Below are positions 49,720-63,374 of a DNA stretch of 64,000 nucleotides, piece after piece. Numbering within the stretch: the first letter of the stretch is position 1; each line of letters begins with the position of its first letter. The translations under genes and the position numbers were made by a program. Source of the stretch: Niabella soli DSM 19437. Lineage in GTDB: Bacteria; Bacteroidota; Bacteroidia; Chitinophagales; Chitinophagaceae. The stretch is from the NCBI RefSeq assembly GCF_000243115.2, contig NZ_CP007035.1, forward strand, positions 2,976,001 to 3,040,000. The letters run 5' to 3'. Under the pieces are notes generated by a model. That model saw only the letters and a list, made by a program, of their open reading frames with translations. It did no database searches and had not been told where the DNA came from.

Positions 49720-51450
49720 TTATTGATTTTGCGTTAACACTCCCTGTGCACGGTCGATCTGCTCCTGCGGGATCGGCATTCCCTTGGTCCAATCCGGGTA
49801 GGTGAGTGTGGGTGTTACCGCAGCTGCGTTAACATAGTTCTTTTCAAAATTAAAGTAAGAGGTCAGCACCGCCTGGATAGTGCCCCAGCGTGTGAGATCA
49901 TAATAGCGGTGCCCTTCCAGGGCCAGCTCCAGCCTTCGCTCAAACCGGACAGCATTCCGCGCATAGTCCTGGCTCGGGAAAGAGGGGTAAGTTGCTATCT
50001 TATAAACGGCGGCAGGAACGCCGGTATCCGTTAACACGGGGTCCAGGTGGGAAGCCCGCGTCCGCACCGCATTCACCCAGGTTCTGGCCTGTTCGAGCGC
50101 ATTGGTTTCCACCGCGCATTCAGCCGCCATCAGGTACACATCAGAAAGCCGGATAATATTTACATTTTGCGCGGTAAGGTAGTTGGCGCCGTTAGCCACA
50201 TTGCCCGGGAAATCAGCCTGGTTAATATTTTGTTTTACCGCTACAAACGGTCCGCCAAAAGGCTGGTCACGGATCCAGCCGGGTACCAACGGGCCCCAGT
50301 CGCGGTACTGCACCTGCCTCCGGCCAATTGTATAGTCAAACCGGGGGTCAAAAACCAGACCGGTATTTACCCTGTAATTATCAACAGCCGCCCCGCTCAA
50401 CCCCTGATCTGATACATAGGGATTGGTCCGGTAGCTGCCATCCAGATAAGGCAAACCATCGGGGCCTACTTTAAAGGCATTTACCAGGTCAACAGATGGC
50501 TGAAAAAAACCGCAACAACCGCCGGGGGAGTTCCCGTAAAGACCATTCAGCATATCACCCACATTGGCATTATCCCCGCTTCCGTCCGCATTGATAACGC
50601 TTTGGGCCACCAGGATCCCTTCTGCGCCATTCTTGGTTTTGATATTAAAATTAGCCGTAAACGATAAACCTGTTAAAGCGGGTTTTTTATTGATCACATT
50701 AGTAAACAGGGGCAACGCATCACTGTATTTTTTCTGGTAGAGATATAATTTTCCCAGGTATGCTTCCGCAGCATATCTATCTACCCGGCCCACCTGGCCC
50801 AGGGGTTTTGAATAGTCTGCGGGTAAGCCGGCTATCGCTGCTTTAAAATCGGCCTCGATCATCGGGAACACATCCTTATCATTTTTCACTTTTGCTGCAT
50901 CTGCGGTACTCATTGTTTCATCGATATAAGGGATATTTTTAAACAACCGCGCCAGGAAAAAATAATAATGGCCCCGCAGCATTCTTGCTTCTGCAGTTAT
51001 TTGTGCAGCGCGGTCGTCGCTGAATTTTGCGCCACTGCCCGCTTGCACCACCTTAAGAAGTTTAAGCGTGTTATTACAACGGATCACACCTTCGTAGTAC
51101 ACGCGCCACATACCGGGCAGTTCATCATTGGTGGGCAGCACATTGTGCAATTCGATATCGCTCATAAGTGATTGGTCTGAGCTGTTACTGCCTTTATGGG
51201 CATCATCCGCCCCTACTTCGCCGAAAAGCCACTGGCTGGGGCCGCTGGAATAGTTGCCCCAGGTACCGTTGATATTTCCGTTCATAATACCATAAGCGCC
51301 GATCAGCGCCGATTCCACTCCATTGGTATTGGCCAGTTGGGTTTCGGAAAGAACACCCTGTGGCTTGGCATCCAGGAATCCCTTTCCACAGGAATATACC
51401 GTAGCCAGCACCGAAAGGAGGAATATAGCTTTATATAGTTTCTTTATCAT
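49720..51450 (-). CDS. SusD/RagB-family surface lipoprotein (system 3)
   Basis: Lipoprotein of 576 residues (Cys21 in ATVYSC). SusD features: FLDAKPQGVLSETQLAN, AEARMLRGHYYFFLARLFKN, AAEAYLGKLYLYQKKY, RLSDVYLMAAECAVE, RFERRLELALEGHRYYDLTRW and the ending MPIPQEQIDRAQGVLTQN. The start at 51450 gives a normal lipoprotein signal; a TTG at 51471 is less likely. Follows SusC by 24 bases and ends in a strong terminator, so the locus is only SusC plus SusD. Confidence 0.95.
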   Translation of the reverse strand: MIKKLYKAIFLLSVLATVYSCGKGFLDAKPQGVLSETQLANTNGVESALIGAYGIMNGNINGTWGNYSSGPSQWLFGEVGADDAHKGSNSSDQSLMSDIELHNVLPTNDELPGMWRVYYEGVIRCNNTLKLLKVVQAGSGAKFSDDRAAQITAEARMLRGHYYFFLARLFKNIPYIDETMSTADAAKVKNDKDVFPMIEADFKAAIAGLPADYSKPLGQVGRVDRYAAEAYLGKLYLYQKKYSDALPLFTNVINKKPALTGLSFTANFNIKTKNGAEGILVAQSVINADGSGDNANVGDMLNGLYGNSPGGCCGFFQPSVDLVNAFKVGPDGLPYLDGSYRTNPYVSDQGLSGAAVDNYRVNTGLVFDPRFDYTIGRRQVQYRDWGPLVPGWIRDQPFGGPFVAVKQNINQADFPGNVANGANYLTAQNVNIIRLSDVYLMAAECAVETNALEQARTWVNAVRTRASHLDPVLTDTGVPAAVYKIATYPSFPSQDYARNAVRFERRLELALEGHRYYDLTRWGTIQAVLTSYFNFEKNYVNAAAVTPTLTYPDWTKGMPIPQEQIDRAQGVLTQNQ

Positions 51451-51474
51451 ACAATAATGTTTTAAAGTCAATGT

Positions 51475-54400
51475 TTAGAATGTAACGTTTAAACCAACCA
51501 GGTACTGGCGAGACATTGGGTACATTCCCTCATCTACCCCGGGTGCTGCATAGGTGCCCGGAGCAGACGTAACTTCAGGATCCAGCCCGCTGTATTTGGT
51601 AACGGTAAACAGGTTAGTGCCGCTTACATATAACCGCAGGTTTTTGATCTTATCTTTCAGCGCGCCGTTCATTTTGAAGTTATAGCCGAGCTGCGCCAGT
51701 TTCAATTTGAGGTAGCTGGCATCCTGCACAAAGTAGCTATTAGACAGCATTTCAATGGAATTACGGCTCCTGTAAGGCGCAGGTATATTGCTATTGGTAT
51801 TGGTGGGGCTCCAGGCGTTCAGCATCCGGTCGCTCACGGCGCCATCAAACAGGCTCAGGTCGGTATACAAACGCGTCATATCAAAGTTTTGATTACCCTG
51901 GGATCCGTTAAAAAACAGGGAAAGATCAAAGTTGCCATAGCTTGCATTAAAATTAACGCCGTAGATAAATTTCGGATGGGGGCTGCCGATATAGGTCATG
52001 TCATTATTATTAATTACACCATCTCCGTTAACATCTGCATAATGGAAACCACCCGCGTGCGCTCCCGGCTGTTTTGAGGCATTGGCTTCATCAGCGGTCT
52101 GGAACAGCCCCAGCACTTTATAGCCATAGAAGGCGCCAAAGGGAAGCCCGGCCTGGATTACAGAAGGCTGCACAGAGCGGTTGCTAAGCATGAACACTCT
52201 TTTTACTCCCGGCGCCAGGGCATCCAGGTTATTTATGTTTCTTGAAAAGTTAACGCCCGCATCCAAATGAAATGGCTTAGCAGTGGAAACACTGTTATAA
52301 TGGTAATTCAACACAAGTTCAAAGCCCTTGTTGCTCATCTGGCCCAGGTTTACCCAGGGAGATCCCCCTCCGCCAACGGCCTGTGCCGGTAACGCCAACG
52401 GATAAAGCAGGTCTTTTGTTTTTTTGTTATACACATCAAAAGATCCATCTATTGTATGATTCAGTAGCGTAAAGTCAAGTCCCAGGTTCAGGGACTGCGC
52501 CTGCTCCCATTTAACATTAGGATTGTCATAGGATGATGTCCATACGCCGCTGGCCAAGCTGCTTCCTCCTATGGGATAGTTAGAATAATTGATAGCAGAC
52601 TGGAAGAATTTCAGGTACTGAAAATCGGGAATATTCTGGTTACCGGTAACCCCCCAGCCCGCACGGAGTTTCAGATCGTTCACCCATGATACACTTTTCA
52701 TGAATTCTTCATTGGATACCCTCCAGGCCAGGCTCGCAGCAGGAAAGTTACCATACTTATTGCTGGGACCAAAACGGGAGGACCCATCCCGGCGCAGGGT
52801 TGCCGAGATCAGGTATTTATCCAGGTACCCGTAATCTACTCTTCCAAAAACAGAATAGAGCGAACTTGGCTGTATGATTGTATTGCCGGCCACAGGGGTC
52901 GCGGTTGCCGTGTTCATATAATAATAGTTCATATCCCCCATCAGGAAAAAGCCGGTAGCATTACCGTTCAGTATCCTTGCCTGGGATTTTACTGCTTCTG
53001 TACCCGCCAGTACGGTAAGGTCATGTTTCTCAGCAAAACGCTTTTTATAGGTAAGGGTATTGGACCAGGTCCAGTCTGTGTTCCAGCCCATGCTTTCACC
53101 AAACGTATGGTTGTTATAGCTTCCCTCCGCACGTTCAGGGTTAGGATAGCCCACTGATCTGCTGTTCCAGCTTTCATATTGGGTTCCGAAAGTGGTTCTC
53201 AGGTGCAGGCTCTCCAGGATCTTAAGATCGGCAAAAGCGCTTCCAAAAAACCGGTTGGAAGTGCTTGTATTGTCCTTAGCCCGGTACAATGCGGCCATCG
53301 GGTTCTCGGCATTACCCAGCAGGTTACCGCGGCTGCCCGCAAAATTGCCCATAATGTCGTATACCGGTATAATGGATTGAATACGATAGGCCCAGCCGAT
53401 AGGCGAGCCTTCACCCATATATTGCCCCGCCGTATTTACATTCGTTGAGAACCCCTGGTTCTGCGTACGGGAATACAGGATATTCTCTCCCAATTGCAAC
53501 CGGTCATTAAATACCGTAAAATTACTGTTGGCACGAACGGTATAACGCTTAAACCCGGTGTACTTTACGGTGCCCTCCTGGTTCATATAGCTTCCACTCA
53601 CCGCGTAATTGGCTTTGTCTGCCCCGCCGCTCACCGTAAGCTGGTAGTTCTGGATGGGCGCGTTCTGGGTAATGGTCCGGTACCAGTCTGTACCTGCTTT
53701 GTTGGCCTGGGTGATCTGGTAAAAAGTAGTTCCATCCATTGTGTAATTATACAATTTGGGATCGGCCTGGGCTGCTGTGATCTTTTGCCCATAAGTTCCC
53801 CCCGCCAGCAAATAATCCGGCAATGTAGGCTTATTAGGGTCGCTTCCATAATAATCATTTGTTATGGGCAGCCCTGCGTTCTTGAAGCCGGCGTAAAGGA
53901 AATCAGCAAATTGCTGCGGGTTCATATACTTTGGAAACCGCCCCCTGTTGGGGTTCTGGGTACCATAATACATATCCAGGTTCACCCGTGGCGCACCTGA
54001 TTTTCCTTTTTTTGTAGTAACAATAACTACCCCGTTATTGGCGCGGGAACCATAAATAGAAGCCGCAGACGCATCTTTTAATACCTGCATGCTTTCAATA
54101 TCAGTAGCATTTAACCAGCTTAGTTTCCCCTGGTAGGGCATTCCATCAATAATGTATAACGGATCATTATTATTAATGGTACTAAAGCCGCGGATCCGGA
54201 TCTGCGGCGTAGCGCCTGGCGATCCGTCATTCACCACCTGCACACCCGCAGCTTTACCCTGCAGCGCTTCAATAGGGCTGGCCGCCGGCTGCGATTTTAA
54301 TTCAGACATATCCACCACGGCCACAGAACCCGTCAGGTCCTTTTTCCGGGCCGTTCCATAACCGATCACCACTACATCTGTCAGATCCGACACATCCGAT

Positions 54401-54693
54401 GTTAAGGTTACCGCAATAGTAGCTGCCGCCCCAACTTTTGCTGTTGTAGCTTTAAATCCTACGCTGGAAAGTTCCAGCACATCTCCGGATTTGGCATTGA
54501 TGGTAAATTTTCCATCCTGGTTAGTAGAAGTACCTGTGGTACCCCCCTTTACAATAACAGACACATTTGGAACCGGGTTGCCTTTGTCATCGGTAACCGT
54601 TCCGGTAATTGCTTTGCCCTGGCTATAGCCCTGTAAGGCAAGCCCAAAGCAGAAAAGCAGTAAAAGCAAGGAGAAAGCTTTTGTTCTCTTCAT
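51475..54693 (-). CDS. SusC/RagA-family TonB-dependent transporter (system 3)
   Basis: Outer-membrane transporter of 1072 residues without STN: signal peptide (cleavage near GYSQ, residue 25), carboxypeptidase-D-like domain (ITGTVTDDKGNPVPNVSV), plug (VVIGYGTARKKDLTGSVAVV, IRIRGFSTINNNDPLYIID, IESMQVLKDASAASIYGSRA) and a barrel ending in QYLVGLNVTF. No regulator or degradative enzyme is linked to this pair, so neither control nor substrate can be proposed. Confidence 0.96.
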   Translation of the reverse strand: MKRTKAFSLLLLLFCFGLALQGYSQGKAITGTVTDDKGNPVPNVSVIVKGGTTGTSTNQDGKFTINAKSGDVLELSSVGFKATTAKVGAAATIAVTLTSDVSDLTDVVVIGYGTARKKDLTGSVAVVDMSELKSQPAASPIEALQGKAAGVQVVNDGSPGATPQIRIRGFSTINNNDPLYIIDGMPYQGKLSWLNATDIESMQVLKDASAASIYGSRANNGVVIVTTKKGKSGAPRVNLDMYYGTQNPNRGRFPKYMNPQQFADFLYAGFKNAGLPITNDYYGSDPNKPTLPDYLLAGGTYGQKITAAQADPKLYNYTMDGTTFYQITQANKAGTDWYRTITQNAPIQNYQLTVSGGADKANYAVSGSYMNQEGTVKYTGFKRYTVRANSNFTVFNDRLQLGENILYSRTQNQGFSTNVNTAGQYMGEGSPIGWAYRIQSIIPVYDIMGNFAGSRGNLLGNAENPMAALYRAKDNTSTSNRFFGSAFADLKILESLHLRTTFGTQYESWNSRSVGYPNPERAEGSYNNHTFGESMGWNTDWTWSNTLTYKKRFAEKHDLTVLAGTEAVKSQARILNGNATGFFLMGDMNYYYMNTATATPVAGNTIIQPSSLYSVFGRVDYGYLDKYLISATLRRDGSSRFGPSNKYGNFPAASLAWRVSNEEFMKSVSWVNDLKLRAGWGVTGNQNIPDFQYLKFFQSAINYSNYPIGGSSLASGVWTSSYDNPNVKWEQAQSLNLGLDFTLLNHTIDGSFDVYNKKTKDLLYPLALPAQAVGGGGSPWVNLGQMSNKGFELVLNYHYNSVSTAKPFHLDAGVNFSRNINNLDALAPGVKRVFMLSNRSVQPSVIQAGLPFGAFYGYKVLGLFQTADEANASKQPGAHAGGFHYADVNGDGVINNNDMTYIGSPHPKFIYGVNFNASYGNFDLSLFFNGSQGNQNFDMTRLYTDLSLFDGAVSDRMLNAWSPTNTNSNIPAPYRSRNSIEMLSNSYFVQDASYLKLKLAQLGYNFKMNGALKDKIKNLRLYVSGTNLFTVTKYSGLDPEVTSAPGTYAAPGVDEGMYPMSRQYLVGLNVTF

Positions 54694-55154
54694 ACGACAA
54701 TTTTAAAGTTAGAAATGCGGTTTGTTTTTTTCGCTAGAAAATGAAGGTAACATTTCATTAACAAAAAACAAATTTTATTATGTTGATCGCACACAATATT
54801 TCTTAACCAAGCCCATGGCTGCTTACAGCCGTTATCAGTTGTTATTTTTCGTTCCGGGCCTCAACTTCAACGCCCTCCCGGCCTGTCATCTGCCTATACA
54901 TCCGTAATCGCTGTTACGGCCGCCGGCATATATTTATCCTGATAAAAACAGTGCGTGGCCTGGCCTGCGGCTCCGCGATACCGCCTGATCGCCGCAGGCG
55001 ACCTTTTTCATCCTTTACTACCTCTTAATCCCCGTTTATTTCATGGTTTTGCGCCGCCATGGTTTGCACCACACCCTCACGAAAATATCTGCCACGCATT
55101 TTGTTTTATTTTAGTAAACTTGCAAAGCACTTCTTCAAAAAGTTATTCTTATTC
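54694..55154. other. non-coding divergent spacer (SusC 3 / sixA)
   Basis: 461 bases with no credible gene. It must hold the SusC promoter at its left end and the sixA promoter at its right end. The only clear structure is the inverted repeat described separately. Confidence 0.6.
54963..54999. repeat. inverted repeat upstream of sixA
   Basis: GCCTGCGGC and GCCGCAGGC pair perfectly over 9 bp with a 19-base loop; the loop also contains CGCCTG able to pair with the distal CAGGCG, so two alternative hairpins exist. A short T-run (CCTTTTT) follows on the plus strand. Confidence 0.6.
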
Positions 55155-55643
55155 ATGAAAACGTTAATTATCATACGCCATTCCAAAGCCGAAAAAGGAT
55201 CGGGCAGGGACATAGACCGGCATCTTACGGAAACCGGCCATCGCGACGCAATCCAGGTAGCAGAACTATTAAAATCCAAAGGATATGAGATCGACAAGAT
55301 CCTGTCGAGCAATTCGGAACGGACGAAACGGACGACCCAGCTTTTCTCAGGGGTATTGGGCATCGACAATGATGCGGTTTTTTTCTTCGAGAGCCTTTAC
55401 CTGGCGGATGTGCTGGGCATATCAGAAACAATTGAGCTGTATGGCGGATCAAAAGCGAATACCCTGGCGGTTGTGGGCCATAATCCCGGCGTAACGAATT
55501 TTGTTACCGATCTTACCCATACGTCGATCGACAATATCCCGACTTCGGGCGTAGCGGTCATGGAAGTTGACCTGGAAGATTGGGCCCAATTGGGAAGCGC
55601 GGGTAAGAAGCTGGTAGCTACTTTTTCACCGAAGGATCTTTAG
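55155..55643 (+). CDS. sixA: SixA-type phosphohistidine phosphatase
   Basis: Histidine-phosphatase (RHG) fold protein of 162 residues: IIIRHSKAEKG with the phospho-accepting His9, LSSNSERTKRTTQLF, and the second catalytic His109 in VVGHNPGVTNFV. SixA removes phosphate from phosphohistidine of phosphotransfer (HPt) domains. The ATG at 55155 places the RH motif at its normal position; an upstream ATG would add an unrelated sequence. It converges on the histidine kinase gene, whose signalling it might modulate, although the kinase has no HPt domain. Confidence 0.9.
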   Translation: MKTLIIIRHSKAEKGSGRDIDRHLTETGHRDAIQVAELLKSKGYEIDKILSSNSERTKRTTQLFSGVLGIDNDAVFFFESLYLADVLGISETIELYGGSKANTLAVVGHNPGVTNFVTDLTHTSIDNIPTSGVAVMEVDLEDWAQLGSAGKKLVATFSPKDL

Positions 55644-55717: not shown

Positions 55718-56800
55718 TTAACCATTCACTACCGCCGCTTCATCCTTCCCCCAATCTTTCTTTGCCGCCAGCGTAAACCCAATGGTCGTGCCCACATTTT
55801 CCGTGCTGCGTATATGAATGGTTTGCTGATGCGCTTCAATAATATGTTTGCAGATTGCCAATCCCAGCCCACTGCCCGTTACGTCCATACGCCGGCCACA
55901 TTCCGTGCGGAAAAACCGCTCAAATATTCTTGGCAGGCTTTTCTCTTCGATCCCCACGCCATCGTCACTTATTTCAACAAGGATCCTTTTATCATCTGTT
56001 TTGTAAATCCCCGCCTTCACTGATCCGTTGGTTTTCCCGTATTTGATCGCATTCTCAAACAGGTTCAAAACCACCTGCCGGACCCTTTCCTTATCGGCAT
56101 TAACCGTTATGGGAGCCTCACATCCTTTTTTTATGCTGAAATGAATATTTTTTTGCTCGGCTTTTATAGAAATGCTTTCAAATGTTTCTTTCAGCAGATC
56201 CTGGATCACAAAATTGCGTTTTACGATGGTGATCTCGCCCCGTTCCAGACTCGATATTTCATCAAGATCCTGTAGCAGCGTGGTAAGGCGGTCGACATTG
56301 ACCGCGGTTTTTTCGAGAAATTTCCGGTTGAGGAGCGGGTCGATCATATCCCCTGCCAGCAACGTCTCCACATAGCTTTGTATAGCGAAGACCGGCGTTT
56401 TAAATTCGTGCGACAAATTTTGCAGAAATTCCCTCCGGAACTCTTCATTGGCCTGCAGGGTGGCTACTTTCTGCTGATTTTCCTGTGCCCAGTTTTCAAC
56501 ATCCACCGCTACTTCGTCCAAGCTTTTTTTGGGTAAAATGTATTTATAATAGGTTTCCTGCCGGCGCGTTGCCTTGGTTTGATAAATAAATTTATAAATA
56601 ACTTTGATCTTTCGGTAGATAAACCGTTCCAGCACAATGCTGATCAACAGATACCCCCCGATCAACACGACCAGGAAAGAGATCAGCGCCGCTTTCCATT
56701 CATGCTCGATCGCCAGATCAATTAAGCTGATAGGAGCGGCAAGACCCAGCGCGGTAAAGAAAGACAATTTGCGGGGCGAAAGGTTCTTCGGGTCAAACAT
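55718..56800 (-). CDS. sensor histidine kinase (PhoR-like)
   Basis: Inner-membrane kinase of 360 residues. Two closely spaced hydrophobic segments (about 12-30 and 37-57) leave almost no periplasmic loop, so sensing is probably in the membrane or cytoplasm. Then a coiled linker, the HisKA H-box FLQNLSHEFKTP (His131) and HATPase: NLFENAIKYG (N box), EISDDGVGIEE (G1), RIFERFFR (F box), TGSGLGLAICKHI (G2). It follows the response regulator by 86 bases in the same direction, so the pair is co-transcribed. Confidence 0.95.
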   Translation of the reverse strand: MFDPKNLSPRKLSFFTALGLAAPISLIDLAIEHEWKAALISFLVVLIGGYLLISIVLERFIYRKIKVIYKFIYQTKATRRQETYYKYILPKKSLDEVAVDVENWAQENQQKVATLQANEEFRREFLQNLSHEFKTPVFAIQSYVETLLAGDMIDPLLNRKFLEKTAVNVDRLTTLLQDLDEISSLERGEITIVKRNFVIQDLLKETFESISIKAEQKNIHFSIKKGCEAPITVNADKERVRQVVLNLFENAIKYGKTNGSVKAGIYKTDDKRILVEISDDGVGIEEKSLPRIFERFFRTECGRRMDVTGSGLGLAICKHIIEAHQQTIHIRSTENVGTTIGFTLAAKKDWGKDEAAVVNG

Positions 56801-56886: not shown

Positions 56887-57564
56887 CTATACCTCAAACT
56901 TATAACCTACTCCTTTTACAGTAGTAATACAATCCATCTCCAGTTTCTGGCGTATTTTCCTGATGTGGACGTCGATGGTGCGATCTCCGACAATTACGTC
57001 ATTGCCCCAGATAGCGTTCAGGATCTCATTCCGCAAAAAAACACGGCCGGGCTTTAACGCCAGCAGGTACAGCAATTCAAATTCTTTTTTCGCCAGGATG
57101 ATCTCTTTTTCTCCATTTTGAACCACAAACCTTTCAGGATCAATGGTTATAGGACCAGCTTTAATAGATTTAGTATCTTCCTTATGGATTCTACGCAACA
57201 GGGCGGCAACCCTGCTCAACAGTACTTTCGGGCTCACCGGTTTGCTTACATAATCATCTGCTCCTGTCTCCAACCCCCTGATCTGGGTAGACTCATCATT
57301 AAGGGCCGTCAGAAACATAATAAGCGTTTCTTTAAAAACATCCTGCGTCCTCAATACCTGGCAAACCTGAACGCCGGTTTTTTTGGGCATCATCATATCC
57401 AGGATAATCAGGTGAGGTTTTACCTGTTTTGCTTTTTCAATAGCCTCGTCACCGTCCTTTGCTGTTGTTACATTATAACCTTCTTTAATAAGATTATAAG
57501 ATAATATATCAAGCAAATCCGGCTCATCATCTGCCACTAAAATTTTATAGCCCTGGTTCTCCAT
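56887..57564 (-). CDS. OmpR/PhoB-family response regulator
   Basis: Protein of 225 residues: receiver domain with acidic pair Asp12/Asp13, phospho-acceptor Asp56 in LIILDMMMPKKTG and the Lys of DDYVSKPVSP; C-terminal winged helix (about 125-225) with EFELLYLLALKPGRVFLRNE and DRTIDVHIRKIRQKLE. Partner of the histidine kinase that follows. PhoB/PhoP-like; the target regulon cannot be told. Confidence 0.96.
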   Translation of the reverse strand: MENQGYKILVADDEPDLLDILSYNLIKEGYNVTTAKDGDEAIEKAKQVKPHLIILDMMMPKKTGVQVCQVLRTQDVFKETLIMFLTALNDESTQIRGLETGADDYVSKPVSPKVLLSRVAALLRRIHKEDTKSIKAGPITIDPERFVVQNGEKEIILAKKEFELLYLLALKPGRVFLRNEILNAIWGNDVIVGDRTIDVHIRKIRQKLEMDCITTVKGVGYKFEV

Positions 57565-57589: not shown

Positions 57590-57650
57590 ACCGTATTTTT
57601 TTATTCTGATACCTTTTTCGCGATCCGATTACACAGAGTTAATAATAAAT

Positions 57651-57658
57651 TAATTTTG
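57651..57658 (+). promoter_or_regulatory. candidate -7 box of the first large exported paralog
   Basis: TAATTTTG fits TAnnTTTG and would give a leader of about 118 bases. Confidence 0.4.
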
Positions 57659-57782: not shown

Positions 57783-60023
57783 ATGAATAAATTTTTGCCG
57801 GTTCTCCTGCTGCTGTTATTGTCCCTGCAAGTATCTGCTCAAAGAAGATCTAAACGTAAAAAAAAGAATGTGCCGCAGGTGGTTGCCGTTGTGGATACCA
57901 TTCCGGCCTATACACCGGCAATGATCCGCCTGAAATTACACGAGAATATTGATGCCGACCAAAAAGCTTTACTCGCCAGCGATGGCAACGCCGACGGTAT
58001 TTTAAAAGTTGGGGTGGACAGCAAGGTAAACGAAGCCGTTACCAATGCGGCAACCAAACAGGTGAACTGGTTGCAATATCGCCTGGAAACCGATCCCAAA
58101 CTGGACCAGCGTTTAAAGGCGAATTACCTCTCCGGCATCTCCGAGATCCTTCGGTTTGTAAAAACGGGATGGAAAAGAAATGAAGTGGATGCCGCCTACC
58201 TGCCCCAGATCATAACCGCCTATCAGAACTGTATAGAAGCCGACCGGAATAAACAATCCATAGCGCCGGTGATTCGTCCGCTGCCTTACGATGTAGCCTA
58301 TACAAGCATTTTACCCCGTGTGTTTAAAGATAATCCGGGGTATAAGGAGACCAAAGGACTGGTTTTGGTAAAGCTCAGCCAAAAATATCCCCAGCGGACC
58401 TTTGCAGCGTTAAAGGCCGACCCGGAGTCGCCTTATGCGGATAGCCTTATAAGAGTAATGGCGCATAAATATCCCCAGCAGGTATATGATTATGCCCAGG
58501 CAAATAATAAACTCAGCTATAAACTCCAGGGAATAGAAGATGATCCGCTGATCACTCATATTGTAGCCATGGCCCGCAGCGACAGTAAAAGCGGACAGTT
58601 TTATTTTCCGTTTTTGGACAACATAGTGAAGGGAAAAATCACTACGAAGGACATCGACAATGCCAAAAATGATCCGGTAAAATATTTCCGCCTGCTGGTA
58701 AATACCGAGATTGAATATACCACGCGTATGGCCAATGGTGATACGGCCATTGGGTACAAGAGCCTGCTGGCCAAGATGGAGCAAAAAGCGAAAGATGATT
58801 TCATCGCACCCATCAACGGACTTCATGAAAGCCCGGACGCCATCCGGTTCAGGGCTATTCAGCCTTTAAGAGCTGAAGATCTTTATTATGTGGCGGTACT
58901 CACGGATGGACTGATCTATACCAGCAGCTATACCAACGGCGTGTATCCCCTGATGATGAAAAAAGCCGGCAATAAAGGCGATGAGCTGCTGAAGAAACTA
59001 AACTTCGACCACTACCGTAAATTTATTGCCCAGGCCGCTGCCTACAATACATTGAGAAATTTCCTGGGATCCTTTCAAAATCAGGAAGATACAAAGAATC
59101 TCATGACCACTTTCGTAAGTAATCTTGAAAAATCGGATGGTCTGGAAGATGGCGTGGATGTGGCAGATTCCTATGCCAGTGTTTATGAAACCCTGCCCGA
59201 TCTGTCTAAGCAAATGCTGGAAAACGTAAAAAATAACCTGGACCGGAATCAGCATAACCGAAACAAAAAAGGAGTGGCCATCTACAGCATTCTGTACAAC
59301 CTGTTTCTTTCAGCAGACTCCACCAACCATATTGATCTTACACAGAAATTGCATATACCGCCGGTATACGATGTATCATTTAAAAGCCTGGCGAACGAAA
59401 AAGGAGAAGTGGTGTGCCAGGTGTTTTTCTATGGCGATAAAGACGGTCAAACCATTTTTAATGGCTTCCTGGGAATGTTTAATTCCAACTGGAAAATTGA
59501 CCGCAGCAATAAACAATGGGTAGTCATCCGGTCAGTAAAAGGCAATCCTGTAGCCATCTATGCCAACCGGCCGTTAGATGAAACCAAGGGCGAAGACGAC
59601 GCCGCCCAGCGGGCATTGAATGCCTACCTGGAAGATCATAATCTTTACCCAACCGTTACCATACATCGCGGCCACAGTTACTGGGCGCCTTCCACCATCG
59701 ATTATATGTCACCCACTTCAAAACTGGTATTTATGGGCTCCTGTGGCGGCTTTAACCTGATCGACTCTATTCTGCGGAAATCGCAGGATGCACATATCAT
59801 CGCTTCCAAGCAAATTGGTAAAACGGCCATCAACAAGCCCTTCTTCCTTTTATTAACCGAAAAATTACGGACCGGAAAAGATATTGAATGGATCCCCTTT
59901 TGGAAGGAATTTAAAAAAGCTGCCAATGTACCTGGTTTTGAAGACTATATTCCTCCCTATAAAAATTTAGGCGCCATTTTTATTAAAGCCTATAAAAAAG
60001 AAACCGGGCAAACCGATGTGTAA
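57783..60023 (+). CDS. large exported protein with HRGH...GSCGG motif (paralog A), function unknown
   Basis: Not a family I can name. 746 residues: signal peptide (MNKFLPVLLLLLLSLQVSAQ) followed by a basic stretch (RRSKRKKK), then about 580 mainly helical residues with conserved GLHESPDAIRF, YYVAVLTDGLIYTSSYTNGV and GLEDGVDVADSYASVYETL. The C-terminal part has HRGHSYW (His628, His631) and, 23 residues after the second His, FMGSCGG (Cys654). A His-Gly-His then Gly/Ser-Cys after a hydrophobic strand is the layout of clan CD (caspase, gingipain, CHAT) peptidases, so a caspase-like fold is inferred, not shown. Start: ATG at 57783; 57777 also possible. A close paralog follows. Confidence 0.75.
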   Translation: MNKFLPVLLLLLLSLQVSAQRRSKRKKKNVPQVVAVVDTIPAYTPAMIRLKLHENIDADQKALLASDGNADGILKVGVDSKVNEAVTNAATKQVNWLQYRLETDPKLDQRLKANYLSGISEILRFVKTGWKRNEVDAAYLPQIITAYQNCIEADRNKQSIAPVIRPLPYDVAYTSILPRVFKDNPGYKETKGLVLVKLSQKYPQRTFAALKADPESPYADSLIRVMAHKYPQQVYDYAQANNKLSYKLQGIEDDPLITHIVAMARSDSKSGQFYFPFLDNIVKGKITTKDIDNAKNDPVKYFRLLVNTEIEYTTRMANGDTAIGYKSLLAKMEQKAKDDFIAPINGLHESPDAIRFRAIQPLRAEDLYYVAVLTDGLIYTSSYTNGVYPLMMKKAGNKGDELLKKLNFDHYRKFIAQAAAYNTLRNFLGSFQNQEDTKNLMTTFVSNLEKSDGLEDGVDVADSYASVYETLPDLSKQMLENVKNNLDRNQHNRNKKGVAIYSILYNLFLSADSTNHIDLTQKLHIPPVYDVSFKSLANEKGEVVCQVFFYGDKDGQTIFNGFLGMFNSNWKIDRSNKQWVVIRSVKGNPVAIYANRPLDETKGEDDAAQRALNAYLEDHNLYPTVTIHRGHSYWAPSTIDYMSPTSKLVFMGSCGGFNLIDSILRKSQDAHIIASKQIGKTAINKPFFLLLTEKLRTGKDIEWIPFWKEFKKAANVPGFEDYIPPYKNLGAIFIKAYKKETGQTDV

Positions 60024-60084
60024 TCTTTTGCGTCTTGGTTTTGTTAAAAGATAGCAGCAGCCTGTTTTTGCACAAAAAAGGGCC

Positions 60085-60092
60085 TAGTTTTG
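60085..60092 (+). promoter_or_regulatory. predicted -7 box of the second large exported paralog
   Basis: TAGTTTTG fits TAnnTTTG, with TTTG 14 bases upstream as a possible -33 box at short spacing. It suggests that paralog B has its own promoter within the 98-base spacer. Confidence 0.5.
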
Positions 60093-60121
60093 CGCATCGA
60101 AGCATTTAAGAATCGTATTTT

Positions 60122-62323
60122 ATGAAAAGATCGGCATTAGTTTTTGGATTGGCAATCGCATCCGTAACCCAGGTATTTTCCCAATCAGAAAATTCCGCTG
60201 TACCGGACTATACAGTTCCTGTTACCCGGCAGTTATTACACGACAAAATCAACAAACAACAAACGTTATTATTAGGCAGCGACGGCAAAGCCGATAACAG
60301 TTTTGTAATTGACAATAATGAAAGTGCCAGCAGGGTAGCCACCAGCGCTATCACTTCGAAAGTGGACTGGCTGGAGTATGAAATAGAATCCAACGCCAAG
60401 ATCGATAATCGCATGAAAGCCGGCTATCTTGCCGGTATTGTGGATATTCTGAGCCACATGCGCACCGGGTGGCTTAAAAAAGAAGTAAACCCCACGCATT
60501 TTGACCAGATCATCGCCTTGTATAAAAAGCTGATCGAGGCGAACCAGGAGAAAGGCTCCCTGATCCCCTATATTTCTTATTTCCCTTACGATATTGCCTA
60601 TACGGCAACGCTGCCCCGGATCCTGGAGGAAAACCCGTCGTACAAGGAGATCAAAGACATCGTATTATTAAAATATTGCCGGCAATATCCCAGCAAAACC
60701 TTTCAGAAGCTGGTAAGTTATCCTGATGCGCCTGCAGCCGACAGCCTGATTAAAGCCGTTGGACGACAATACCCGGAGCAATTATATTCCTATGCTCAGG
60801 GTTACGACAAACTGGCCAACAAAATACGCAGCATCAAAAATGATGATTTTGTAAAAACGGTGGTTGATCTTTCGCAGCAAAAAAGCGGGCAAATGTATTT
60901 TCCCTTCCTGGATAATTTGGTAAAGGGAAAAATATCCATTGCCCAACTGGATGCCGCTAAAGATGATCGCTACAAATACTACCGTCTTTTGGTAAATACC
61001 CAGCTCGATTATGTGCAGCGGGCCCTGAACGGGGATACCGCCATCGGGTTCCGGGAACTGACCAACCGGTTGGAGAAAAAGGCTTCTGATGATTTTATTA
61101 TGGAGATCAACGGGCTGCATGAATCGCCGGATGCCGTGCGGTTTAAATGTATTCAGCCGCTGAACGCCCAGGAGCTTTATTACCTGGCCGTACTTACGGA
61201 TGGATTGATCTATACCAGCAGCTACACGCATGGCGTGTACCCGTTAATGATGAAAAAGATCAACGACCGGGGTGATTCCCTGCTGCTGTCGGTTCATTTT
61301 GATCACTATCGTAAATTCATCAGCCAGGCGGCTGCCTACAATACCTTAAAGAACTTTTTCACCACTTTTAAAAGCGAAAACGACGCCCGGGACCTGATGA
61401 CGGCATTTGTAAGCAGCCTGGAAAAATCAAAAGGCCTGGAAGACGGGGTGGATGTGGCGGATTCCTATGCCAGCGTATATGAAACCCTCCCCGACCTTGC
61501 GGGACAGATGTTACGCAACATCCGCAGAGGATTGGATGCCAATCGAAGTTCACGTAACAAACGGGGTGTTGCTATTTACAACATATTGTATAAGTTGTTC
61601 CTCTCTGCCGATTCCTCCAATAATATTAACCTTACCAAGGAGCTTGGCATTCCCCCCGTTTATACCGTGCCGTTTAAAAACCTCACAAACGAGAAGGGAG
61701 AGGTAATTTCACAAATGTTTTTTTACGGGGATGAGGACGGACAAATGGACTTTGATATTTTCGTTCGCACCTTTAGCGCCGATCCCAACTGGAAAGTGGA
61801 CCAAAGCAACAGCAACTTTATTGTAGCCAAATCAGTTAAAGGCGCGCCGGTTTATGTATATGTTAACCGCCCCCTTCCTAAGGTTGAGGATGGAGACAGT
61901 AAGGCGCAAAACGCCATGGAACAATACATGGAGGATCATAATCTTTCGCCTACCATCACGTTTCACCGGGGGCACAGTTACCATGCGCCTACAAGCGTCG
62001 GGTATATTACACCCACTTCCCGCATTGTATTTATGGGGTCCTGCGGCGGATTTAACCTGATTGATTCTATTCTGAAAAAATCAAGCGACGCGCATATTAT
62101 CACGTCCAAGCAAACAGGGTACAGAGACATTAACCTGCCGTTTATACGTATATTATTAGAAACATTACGGGATCAGCACGATATTGACTGGATGCCCTTC
62201 TGGAAAGAATTCAGGGAAAAAGCCCACGTAACAGGGTTAGAAGACTATATTCCTCCCTATAAAAACCTGGGCGCCCTCTTCATTAAAGCCTATAAAAAAG
62301 AAATGGGAGAGGATGATCTGTAG
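60122..62323 (+). CDS. large exported protein with HRGH...GSCGG motif (paralog B), function unknown
   Basis: 733 residues, clearly homologous to paralog A over the full length, with very high similarity in the last 120 residues. Signal peptide MKRSALVFGLAIASVTQVFS, without the basic stretch of paralog A. The motif is kept exactly: HRGHSYH (His615, His618) and FMGSCGG (Cys641), the same 23-residue spacing, then FNLIDSIL, DAHIITSKQTG, MPFWKEF and EDYIPPYKNLGALFIKAYKK. The Cys and His being invariant while flanks vary points to a catalytic or binding role. Tandem copy, 98 bases after paralog A. Confidence 0.75.
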   Translation: MKRSALVFGLAIASVTQVFSQSENSAVPDYTVPVTRQLLHDKINKQQTLLLGSDGKADNSFVIDNNESASRVATSAITSKVDWLEYEIESNAKIDNRMKAGYLAGIVDILSHMRTGWLKKEVNPTHFDQIIALYKKLIEANQEKGSLIPYISYFPYDIAYTATLPRILEENPSYKEIKDIVLLKYCRQYPSKTFQKLVSYPDAPAADSLIKAVGRQYPEQLYSYAQGYDKLANKIRSIKNDDFVKTVVDLSQQKSGQMYFPFLDNLVKGKISIAQLDAAKDDRYKYYRLLVNTQLDYVQRALNGDTAIGFRELTNRLEKKASDDFIMEINGLHESPDAVRFKCIQPLNAQELYYLAVLTDGLIYTSSYTHGVYPLMMKKINDRGDSLLLSVHFDHYRKFISQAAAYNTLKNFFTTFKSENDARDLMTAFVSSLEKSKGLEDGVDVADSYASVYETLPDLAGQMLRNIRRGLDANRSSRNKRGVAIYNILYKLFLSADSSNNINLTKELGIPPVYTVPFKNLTNEKGEVISQMFFYGDEDGQMDFDIFVRTFSADPNWKVDQSNSNFIVAKSVKGAPVYVYVNRPLPKVEDGDSKAQNAMEQYMEDHNLSPTITFHRGHSYHAPTSVGYITPTSRIVFMGSCGGFNLIDSILKKSSDAHIITSKQTGYRDINLPFIRILLETLRDQHDIDWMPFWKEFREKAHVTGLEDYIPPYKNLGALFIKAYKKEMGEDDL

Positions 62324-62424: not shown

Positions 62425-63117
62425 TTACTGCTTCCACAACTGAACGCCGCCATCTATCCCGTCTTCATTAGTAACGATGCTCATAGTGGCATCCAGTTCA
62501 AAGGTTATTTTCTTTGCGTTTCCGCCACCAATAAATAAATGATCATAGTTAAACGTGGTTTTCAGAATCTTCAGGATCTTTTCCAGGCGTTTATTCCAAT
62601 CTTTTTTCCCCAGGGCATCATAGGCTTTTTGGCCGATACAGTGGTCATAGGTCTTACTATCAAAACAGGGATGTTGCCCTATTTCCAGGTGAGGCAATAG
62701 TTTTCCGTTCAGAAAAAAAGCCGTTCCAAAACCGGTGCCCAGGGTGATCATCATTTCGAACCCATTCTCTTTTATACAACCCAGGCCCAGCATATCAGCA
62801 TCATTCACCACCCGTGCCGGTTTGCCCAGCGCTTTTGTAAGCAAGGTAGCCAGGTCCACCTTATCCCAGTATTTTGAGCCAAGATTAGGCGCAGTATGAA
62901 CAATATTATCCCGTACATACCCAGGAAACCCGGCAGCGATCCTGTCGTAGGTAAATCCCTTTACTAATTCCTTTATCGTTTGTATAAGATTTTGCGGCGT
63001 AGCCGGGTCCGGCGTGGGGAGTTTTATATAGTCGTGCACCAATTGCCCCTTTTCGTTCAATGTGCTCGCCTTTACTTTGGAACCGCCAATATCAATTGCT
63101 AAGGTAATTGCTCCCAT
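62425..63117 (-). CDS. ROK-family kinase, polyphosphate-glucokinase-like
   Basis: Protein of 230 residues: ATP/polyphosphate loop TLAIDIGGSKVKAS at the N-terminus, RIAAGFPGYVRDNIV, catalytic Asp in VVNDADMLGLG (Asp108), ITLGTGFGTAFFLNG, and EIGQHP. The short length and the EIGxHP segment resemble polyphosphate glucokinases rather than the longer ROK repressors, and no DNA-binding domain is present. It should phosphorylate glucose using polyphosphate or ATP; the donor is not determinable. The ATG at 63117 removes a 10-residue TTG-initiated extension. Confidence 0.85.
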   Translation of the reverse strand: MGAITLAIDIGGSKVKASTLNEKGQLVHDYIKLPTPDPATPQNLIQTIKELVKGFTYDRIAAGFPGYVRDNIVHTAPNLGSKYWDKVDLATLLTKALGKPARVVNDADMLGLGCIKENGFEMMITLGTGFGTAFFLNGKLLPHLEIGQHPCFDSKTYDHCIGQKAYDALGKKDWNKRLEKILKILKTTFNYDHLFIGGGNAKKITFELDATMSIVTNEDGIDGGVQLWKQ

Positions 63118-63374
63118 TTCTGCTGTTTTGAGCGAAAAGATACGCAAGATTCTATGCCCTTTAAAAAAAATTGTGCGGATAATTACGCATAGATTTTAGA
63201 ACCGTTGCCTATACGAGTAAACCACGAACCGAAAACCGCCACGAATTCCATCGTTCTGCATTGCAGGCATTAAAAAATTAACAGGCAGACAACAGAACCA
63301 TTTTATGCGTCCGCCCTGCTCCTTTTTGACCTTTCATCTTTCACTATTCACGGGAATAACTATCTTGCAGGTTC

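Follow-up and report, generated by a model that had tools for sequence, protein, structure and literature searches.

A secreted protein family of Chitinophagaceae with an invariant histidine and cysteine, encoded beside a two-component system

The gene pair and its two-component system

The stretch of DNA analysed here, hereafter the window, comprises 64,000 nucleotides of the Niabella soli DSM 19437 genome (contig NZ_CP007035.1). It carries two tandem genes for secreted proteins, which we call A and B, and a response regulator (RR) and sensor histidine kinase (HK) encoded on the opposite strand beside A (Table 1). An earlier note, made from the sequence alone, had described two open reading frames of about 740 residues with signal peptides, homologous from end to end and adjoined by a two-component system, and this layout holds with its coordinates unchanged.

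Table 1. Features of the A/B locus; positions are counted in the window.
Feature	Positions	Strand	Basis or detail
Sensor histidine kinase (HK), two membrane segments	55718..56800	-	
OmpR/PhoB-type response regulator (RR), divergent neighbour of A	56887..57564	-	
Candidate RR operator: three half-sites in a direct repeat of 11-bp period, WTWAY-N6-TTWAY-N6-TTWAY	57628..57654	+	
Protein A, 746 aa, secreted	57783..60023 (stop codon included)	+	ORF list; signal peptide read from letters
A, putative signal peptide, residues 1-19, MNKFLPVLLLLLLSLQVSA before Q; predicted cleavage site	57783..57839	+	Sequence; family starts
A, helical N-terminal domain of no known family, residues 47-510, with R355 and Y379-T380-S381 conserved	57921..59312	+	
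A, alpha/beta C-terminal domain, residues 536-746, common to Azospirillum plasmid proteins	59388..60020	+	
A, HRGHSY, residues 628-633	59664..59681	+	His631 codon 59673-59675
A, GSCGG, residues 652-656	59736..59750	+	Cys654 codon 59742-59744
Protein B, 733 aa, secreted, tandem paralog of A	60122..62323	+	ORF list, homology, tree
B, HRGHSY, residues 615-620	61964..61981	+	His618 codon 61973-61975
B, GSCGG, residues 639-643	62036..62050	+	Cys641 codon 62042-62044

A and B are 56–58% identical across nearly their full length and are the sole two family matches in the source genome (4.70 Mb, one contig). Both open with a hydrophobic signal sequence that, as read from the sequence, ends in VSA or VFS before Q. 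A signal-peptide-like start was seen in 64 of the 64 family starts read, with an A, S or G before Q at the junction in 61; these starts were picked by a script that favours signal peptides, and 3 of 67 divergent loci had no readable start. In the tree, the A-type and B-type sequences of Niabella fall into two clades with supports of 0.998 and 1.0, which places the duplication before the split of the species included. Two copies are present in all nine Niabella-type genomes (four of four of the genus in the family sample and five of five named Niabella loci). Because the copies lie far apart in three of the Niabella-type genomes (G022, G119 and G189), the tandem order is not general.

The association with a two-component system extends well beyond Niabella. 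Context was read at 71 loci, made up of 10 genome-contig matches, 60 loci from the stronger family matches and the window itself; six are of the Niabella type, and the set leaves out the most divergent members of the family. The RR gene lies immediately 5' of, and divergent from, the A-family gene in 63 of the 71 loci, with the HK gene next in 59, and lies within three genes of it in 67. Within PhoB/WalR-type systems, the RR resembles PhoB most closely (TIGR02154, 224.5 bits, below the cut-off of 296.2) and the HK resembles PnpS (222.2 bits, below the cut-off of 400). Each of the best 25 rows for the two proteins is likewise below cut-off, the HK appearing PnpS/WalK/PhoR-like. Only a few residues separate the two membrane segments of the HK, which leaves it almost no periplasmic loop.

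Regulators of the PhoB/WalR type bind direct repeats with an 11-bp period, and a repeat of this form lies between the RR gene and A. Across the family, TTWAY-N6-TTWAY occurs in 34 of 56 intergenic regions between RR and A-family genes (shuffled mean 4.3, maximum 11), the 56 being what was left of 64 after removal of four regions outside 60–400 bases and four near-duplicate Niabella regions. The half-site was chosen from these same regions, so the scan of gap lengths, rather than the raw count, serves as the control: TTWAY pairs at the other gaps between 2 and 12 occur in 0–10 regions. The triple form of the repeat is not enriched genome-wide, with 12 matches vs 13 for the reversed control (one pattern tried), and among the genes around the 12 genomic sites no phosphate gene was recognised by eye. 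On these counts we rejected a genome-wide regulon of the repeat; with no genomic excess, the triple pattern looks like a local operator and is no proof of a large regulon.

Relatives of the RR that are 48–57% identical to it were found in 15 of 15 given genomes of other Bacteroidota families and in three of four good Chitinophagaceae genomes that lack an A-family gene, so the two-component system does not depend on the gene. Our own reading of these sequences is that an old regulator may have had a secreted gene added beside it in Chitinophagaceae.

The wider neighbourhood is less constant. An ABC transporter gene is present in 43 of the 71 stretches, ATP synthase genes (named from sequence) often come after it, and the other neighbours vary. 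In the window a ROK-type kinase gene (62425-63147, minus strand) stands between B and the ABC transporter; its product scores best against polyphosphate-glucose phosphotransferase (127.5 bits, vs a cut-off of 250), and such a gene was seen in only six of the 71 loci. Adjoining the HK gene is one for a SixA-like phosphohistidine phosphatase (55059-55643, plus strand; 66.4 bits, cut-off 74.5), and positions 49720-54693 of the minus strand hold what we take to be a TonB-dependent receptor and SusD-like pair. At five loci (L096, L111, L112, L117 and L118) genes presumably for a PiT phosphate transporter-like protein and its accessory protein come after the two-component system, a possible link to phosphate.

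Distribution of the family and its invariant residues

The gene was found in 163 of 167 good Chitinophagaceae genomes, in 187 of 195 overall and in 99 of 101 genera. In a sample of 395 Bacteroidota genomes there was no match outside this family, all 14 matching genomes being Chitinophagaceae. A profile of the C-terminal domain gave the same picture: it found nothing in the eight Chitinophagaceae genomes without a match, and in the phylum sample it matched 17 of 392 genomes, 15 of them Chitinophagaceae. The remaining two matches are weak (E 0.0015 and 0.0029) and we judged them to be chance; one lies in a 46-aa frame with a stop, and the other aligns to 46 positions of the profile within a 1287-aa frame that, where visible, encodes a different multi-domain protein. 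Scanning genome contigs with A alone as the query returned 10 loci, nine named as Bacteroidota and one from a metagenome-assembled genome titled Sphingomonadales (VHAT01000016.1). The latter locus has the usual Chitinophagaceae gene order, and its label is probably wrong.

Among plasmid records, 4 of 72,556 matched, all through Azospirillum plasmid proteins (for example on NC_016587.1 and NZ_CP054617.1); no relative was found in phage records or viral contigs. Like A, the Azospirillum proteins keep HRGHSY and GSCGG in a C-terminal domain about 28% identical to that of A, and they keep R355 and the YTS motif in the N-terminal domain. They differ in being shorter (591–674 aa, as annotated or read), are annotated as hypothetical and have a different neighbourhood, with ethanolamine ammonia-lyase genes nearby in two of the three read. 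The three Azospirillum loci lie on large plasmids typed as non-mobilizable.

We aligned 131 sequences, namely 128 from Bacteroidota, A and B counted, and three from Azospirillum; nine matches shorter than 600 aa, and rows sharing identical last 300 residues, were left out. The earlier note had singled out HRGHSY and GSCGG, at an equal spacing of 23 residues in A and B, as invariant, and had asked whether the histidine or cysteine is freely replaced among homologs. Neither is: His631 and Cys654 are each present in 131 of 131 sequences, as are R629, G630, S632, G652 and G655. The remaining motif positions are less strict (Y633 130/131, S653 128/131, H628 125/131, G656 123/131). H628 is not invariant, being replaced by N in five sequences and by Q in one. 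The distance from His631 to Cys654 is 23 residues in 130 sequences, A and B among them, and 22 in one.

This conservation bears on whether the shared motifs could merely reflect the duplication that gave rise to A and B. The two genes are tandem and their products 56–58% identical, as such a reading would have it, but the same residues are fixed in all 131 sequences, the Azospirillum proteins included, and the least similar aligned pair is only 23% identical over the C-terminal domain. We consider the chance that duplication alone accounts for the motifs to be practically nil. Across the 128 Bacteroidota rows, 14 positions of A are invariant and 7 of these 14 fall inside the two short motifs. 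Cys654 is the sole conserved cysteine, the second-commonest cysteine column reaching 61 of 131, so a conserved disulfide was rejected.

Invariant residues are also found outside the C-terminal domain. R355, T380 and S381 are each present in 131 of 131 sequences and Y379 in 130, so the helical region is more than a passive linker. These residues belong to a second conserved cluster, at A residues 340-480 (58800-59222), which contains N345, H348, R355, YTSS and DVA and is partly kept in Azospirillum.

Library searches gave the family no name. No match above a curated cut-off was obtained for A or B in Pfam, NCBIfam, PADLOC or PHROGs (best E 0.036), and Pfam returned no row for A at E<=10. For the caspase family itself, PF00656 (Peptidase_C14), there was no row for A or B at E<=10 and none in the source genome (G000). 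When 53 relatives of the C-terminal domain were compared with Pfam (53 of 57 chosen rows; L115, L122, L145 and L146 left out), scattered weak rows appeared, the best at E 0.0015 for Toprim_3 in 2 of the 53; in an Azospirillum protein Toprim_3 scored 17.4 bits vs a cut-off of 27.2. Of three sequence searches against the PDB, one returned nothing and the others a single row each, at E 1 and E 0.71.

Predicted fold and comparison with caspase-like proteins

An AlphaFold2 model of full-length A built with 18 sequences (mean pLDDT 83, pTM 0.67) has helices over residues 47-510 and then an alpha/beta domain to the C-terminus. The signal sequences, library scans and model agree with the earlier note's description of a large secreted family whose long helical N-terminal region belongs to no known family. 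Modelled separately, the C-terminal domain is again alpha/beta (pLDDT 86.8, pTM 0.86). By DSSP assignment of the model, His631 lies two residues past a strand (625-629) and Cys654 three residues past the next (648-651), with one helix between them. The model terminates in helices and the source genome (G000) has no PF01364 match; we rejected cargo of the type IX secretion system (T9SS), other examples of which carry a C-terminal beta-sandwich sorting domain.

Clan CD comprises, among others, the caspases and metacaspases (C14), clostripain (C11), legumain (C13), gingipain (C25), CHAT and separase. According to PMC4357240, these peptidases have a sheet of six strands, and the catalytic histidine and cysteine stand where strands 3 and 4 end on their C-terminal side. 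As in the clan, the predicted C-terminal domain of A is alpha/beta, the histidine precedes the cysteine and each would lie just past a hydrophobic strand; a small residue also precedes the cysteine. The order of the two residues led us to reject the papain-like clan, in which Cys precedes His. Separase and TPR-CHAT proteins, which belong to clan CD, also have a helical N-terminal part.

Two features of the motifs set the family apart from clan CD. Gly usually follows the catalytic His in clan CD, whereas the A family has Ser there in 131 of 131 sequences; the Gly is not universal, as the one measured C11 protein has Ala and the CHAT matches have several residues at this position by crude patterns. 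The spacing of 23 residues is also shorter than that of C25 (34–35, 23 of 24 measured), CHAT (37–105, 18 of 23), C14 (46–108, 17 of 21) and C11 (46, one of seven), where the spacings were taken with crude patterns that missed one C25, five CHAT, four C14 and six C11 sequences.

The clan CD sets came from Bacteroidota genomes, with 21 of 25 C14 loci, 24 of 25 C25, 24 of 25 CHAT (one more dropped for a stop) and 7 of 10 C11. In profile comparisons, the C-terminal domain of the A family matched none of the four significantly (P 0.11 for C14, 0.053 for CHAT, 0.15 for C25 and 0.14 for C11). A GTPase control profile scored better than all of them (P 0.035), a rough control from 25 of 25 loci in which at least one row is empty because the flank of fixed length runs into a contig end. 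With all 131 rows the values were 0.14 for C14, 0.098 for C25, 0.055 for CHAT, 0.14 for C11 and 0.05 for the GTPase set, and column-shuffled profiles scored at least as high as the real one in 5 of 40 cases for C14, 1 of 40 for CHAT, 5 of 40 for C11 and 10 of 40 for C25. Comparisons within the clan gave 2.8e-6 (C14-CHAT), 0.0026 (C11-C14), 0.0037 (C14-C25), 0.013 (CHAT-C25), 0.028 (C11-CHAT) and 0.28 (C11-C25), five of these six pairs outscoring the best comparison of the A family. When the profiles are aligned locally, the best alignments place Cys654 on the catalytic Cys of C14, CHAT and C11, non-significantly and with the caveat that conserved cysteine columns attract one another; the alignment to C25 does not. 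Membership of the A family in clan CD is not established by profile comparison of these sequences.

The fold searches gave a similar result. Foldseek found no match for the full model of A at E<=0.001, and for the C-terminal domain there was none at this threshold in the PDB (best E 6e-3). Among the best 50 of 1106 rows for the domain (E<=10), most are Ras-like small GTPases and no clan CD chain appears. In a fold search of the viral library with the C-terminal domain, again no match reached E<=0.001 and GTPases were frequent. The P-loop of Ras-like GTPases has the form GxxxxGK[ST]; sought after the first strand of the C-terminal domain it was absent, the consensus loop there being FFYGDKDG. 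As the family differs from small GTPases in lacking a P-loop and carrying a signal sequence, a GTPase function is unlikely. The GTPase rows may be due to a strand order that is partly the same in Ras-like and caspase sheets.

These results are relevant to whether the C-terminal domain is some other Rossmann-like alpha/beta fold with an independently acquired His-Cys pair, for example in an envelope acyl transferase, esterase or amidase. The preponderance of Ras-like and other G-domain proteins, not caspases, in the best 50 Foldseek rows would fit such a fold, as would the lack of a significant clan CD profile match, the Ser after His and the short His-Cys spacing. However, the G-domain neighbours are likewise non-significant, none reaching E<=0.001, their function is an improbable one for a protein with this loop and signal sequence, and the order of strand, His, strand, Cys is that of clan CD. 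We regard another fold as possible, if rather doubtful.

Of the caspase-fold cysteine peptidase proposed in the earlier note, the conserved His and Cys stand, and in the model they follow successive strands in the order of clan CD; the caspase fold is a hypothesis, with no significant fold or profile match, Ser after His and a short spacing. The A family is perhaps a distant caspase-like protease.

A putative envelope hydrolase

Because His and Cys are unchanged in all aligned relatives, the family is probably an unrecognised enzyme. We give about an even chance to A and B being putative His-Cys hydrolases of the envelope, most likely peptidases, made under the adjoining two-component system. 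After export, Cys654 would act as the nucleophile and His631 as the base, in a site shaped by the RGHS and GSCGG loops. The bond that the C-terminal domain hydrolyses would be an acyl or a peptide bond, and peptidase action on an envelope protein is the likeliest case; the N-terminal domain may bind the substrate or control access. The RR would bind the direct repeat and set production of the A-family protein. B is a second copy. Since the HK is almost without a periplasmic part, the enzyme would be the output of the two-component system rather than its periplasmic sensor.

The tight linkage to the two-component system also suits a protein that is no enzyme, such as a periplasmic binding protein or a signalling partner of the system, in which HxxH and Cys hold a metal or thiol signal or are the relic of a dyad. 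H628, H631 and Cys654 could be metal ligands, and DbfQ of Vibrio cholerae is reported (PMC12714742) to be a periplasmic protein that acts on the two-component system next to which it is encoded. Yet the HK has hardly any periplasmic loop through which a signal could be received, six of 131 sequences lack H628 (N in five, Q in one), and G630, G652 and G655 show the same invariance as the dyad, a pattern more in keeping with an active site. A non-enzymatic role thus seems unlikely to us.

It is tempting to go further than a hydrolase of the envelope and see here a new exported family of clan-CD-like cysteine peptidases with a helical-repeat N-terminal domain in a separase-like layout, a signature gene of Chitinophagaceae whose product serves one conserved two-component system as its dedicated effector in the envelope. 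We offer this tentatively, as less likely than not.

The family is undescribed and is unnamed in the libraries tried; among the papers listed on caspase-like and clan CD proteins, Chitinophagaceae and two-component systems, none describes it by title or opening of the abstract. Its near-universal presence in the sampled Chitinophagaceae and its absence elsewhere in the phylum sample suggest that it is likely to be important for the way these bacteria manage their envelope. Should the dyad be catalytic, A and B would represent an additional enzyme family, possibly related very distantly to the caspases, and one with a genetic handle built in, namely a regulator of its own, a candidate operator and the two natural copies of Niabella, which can be compared.
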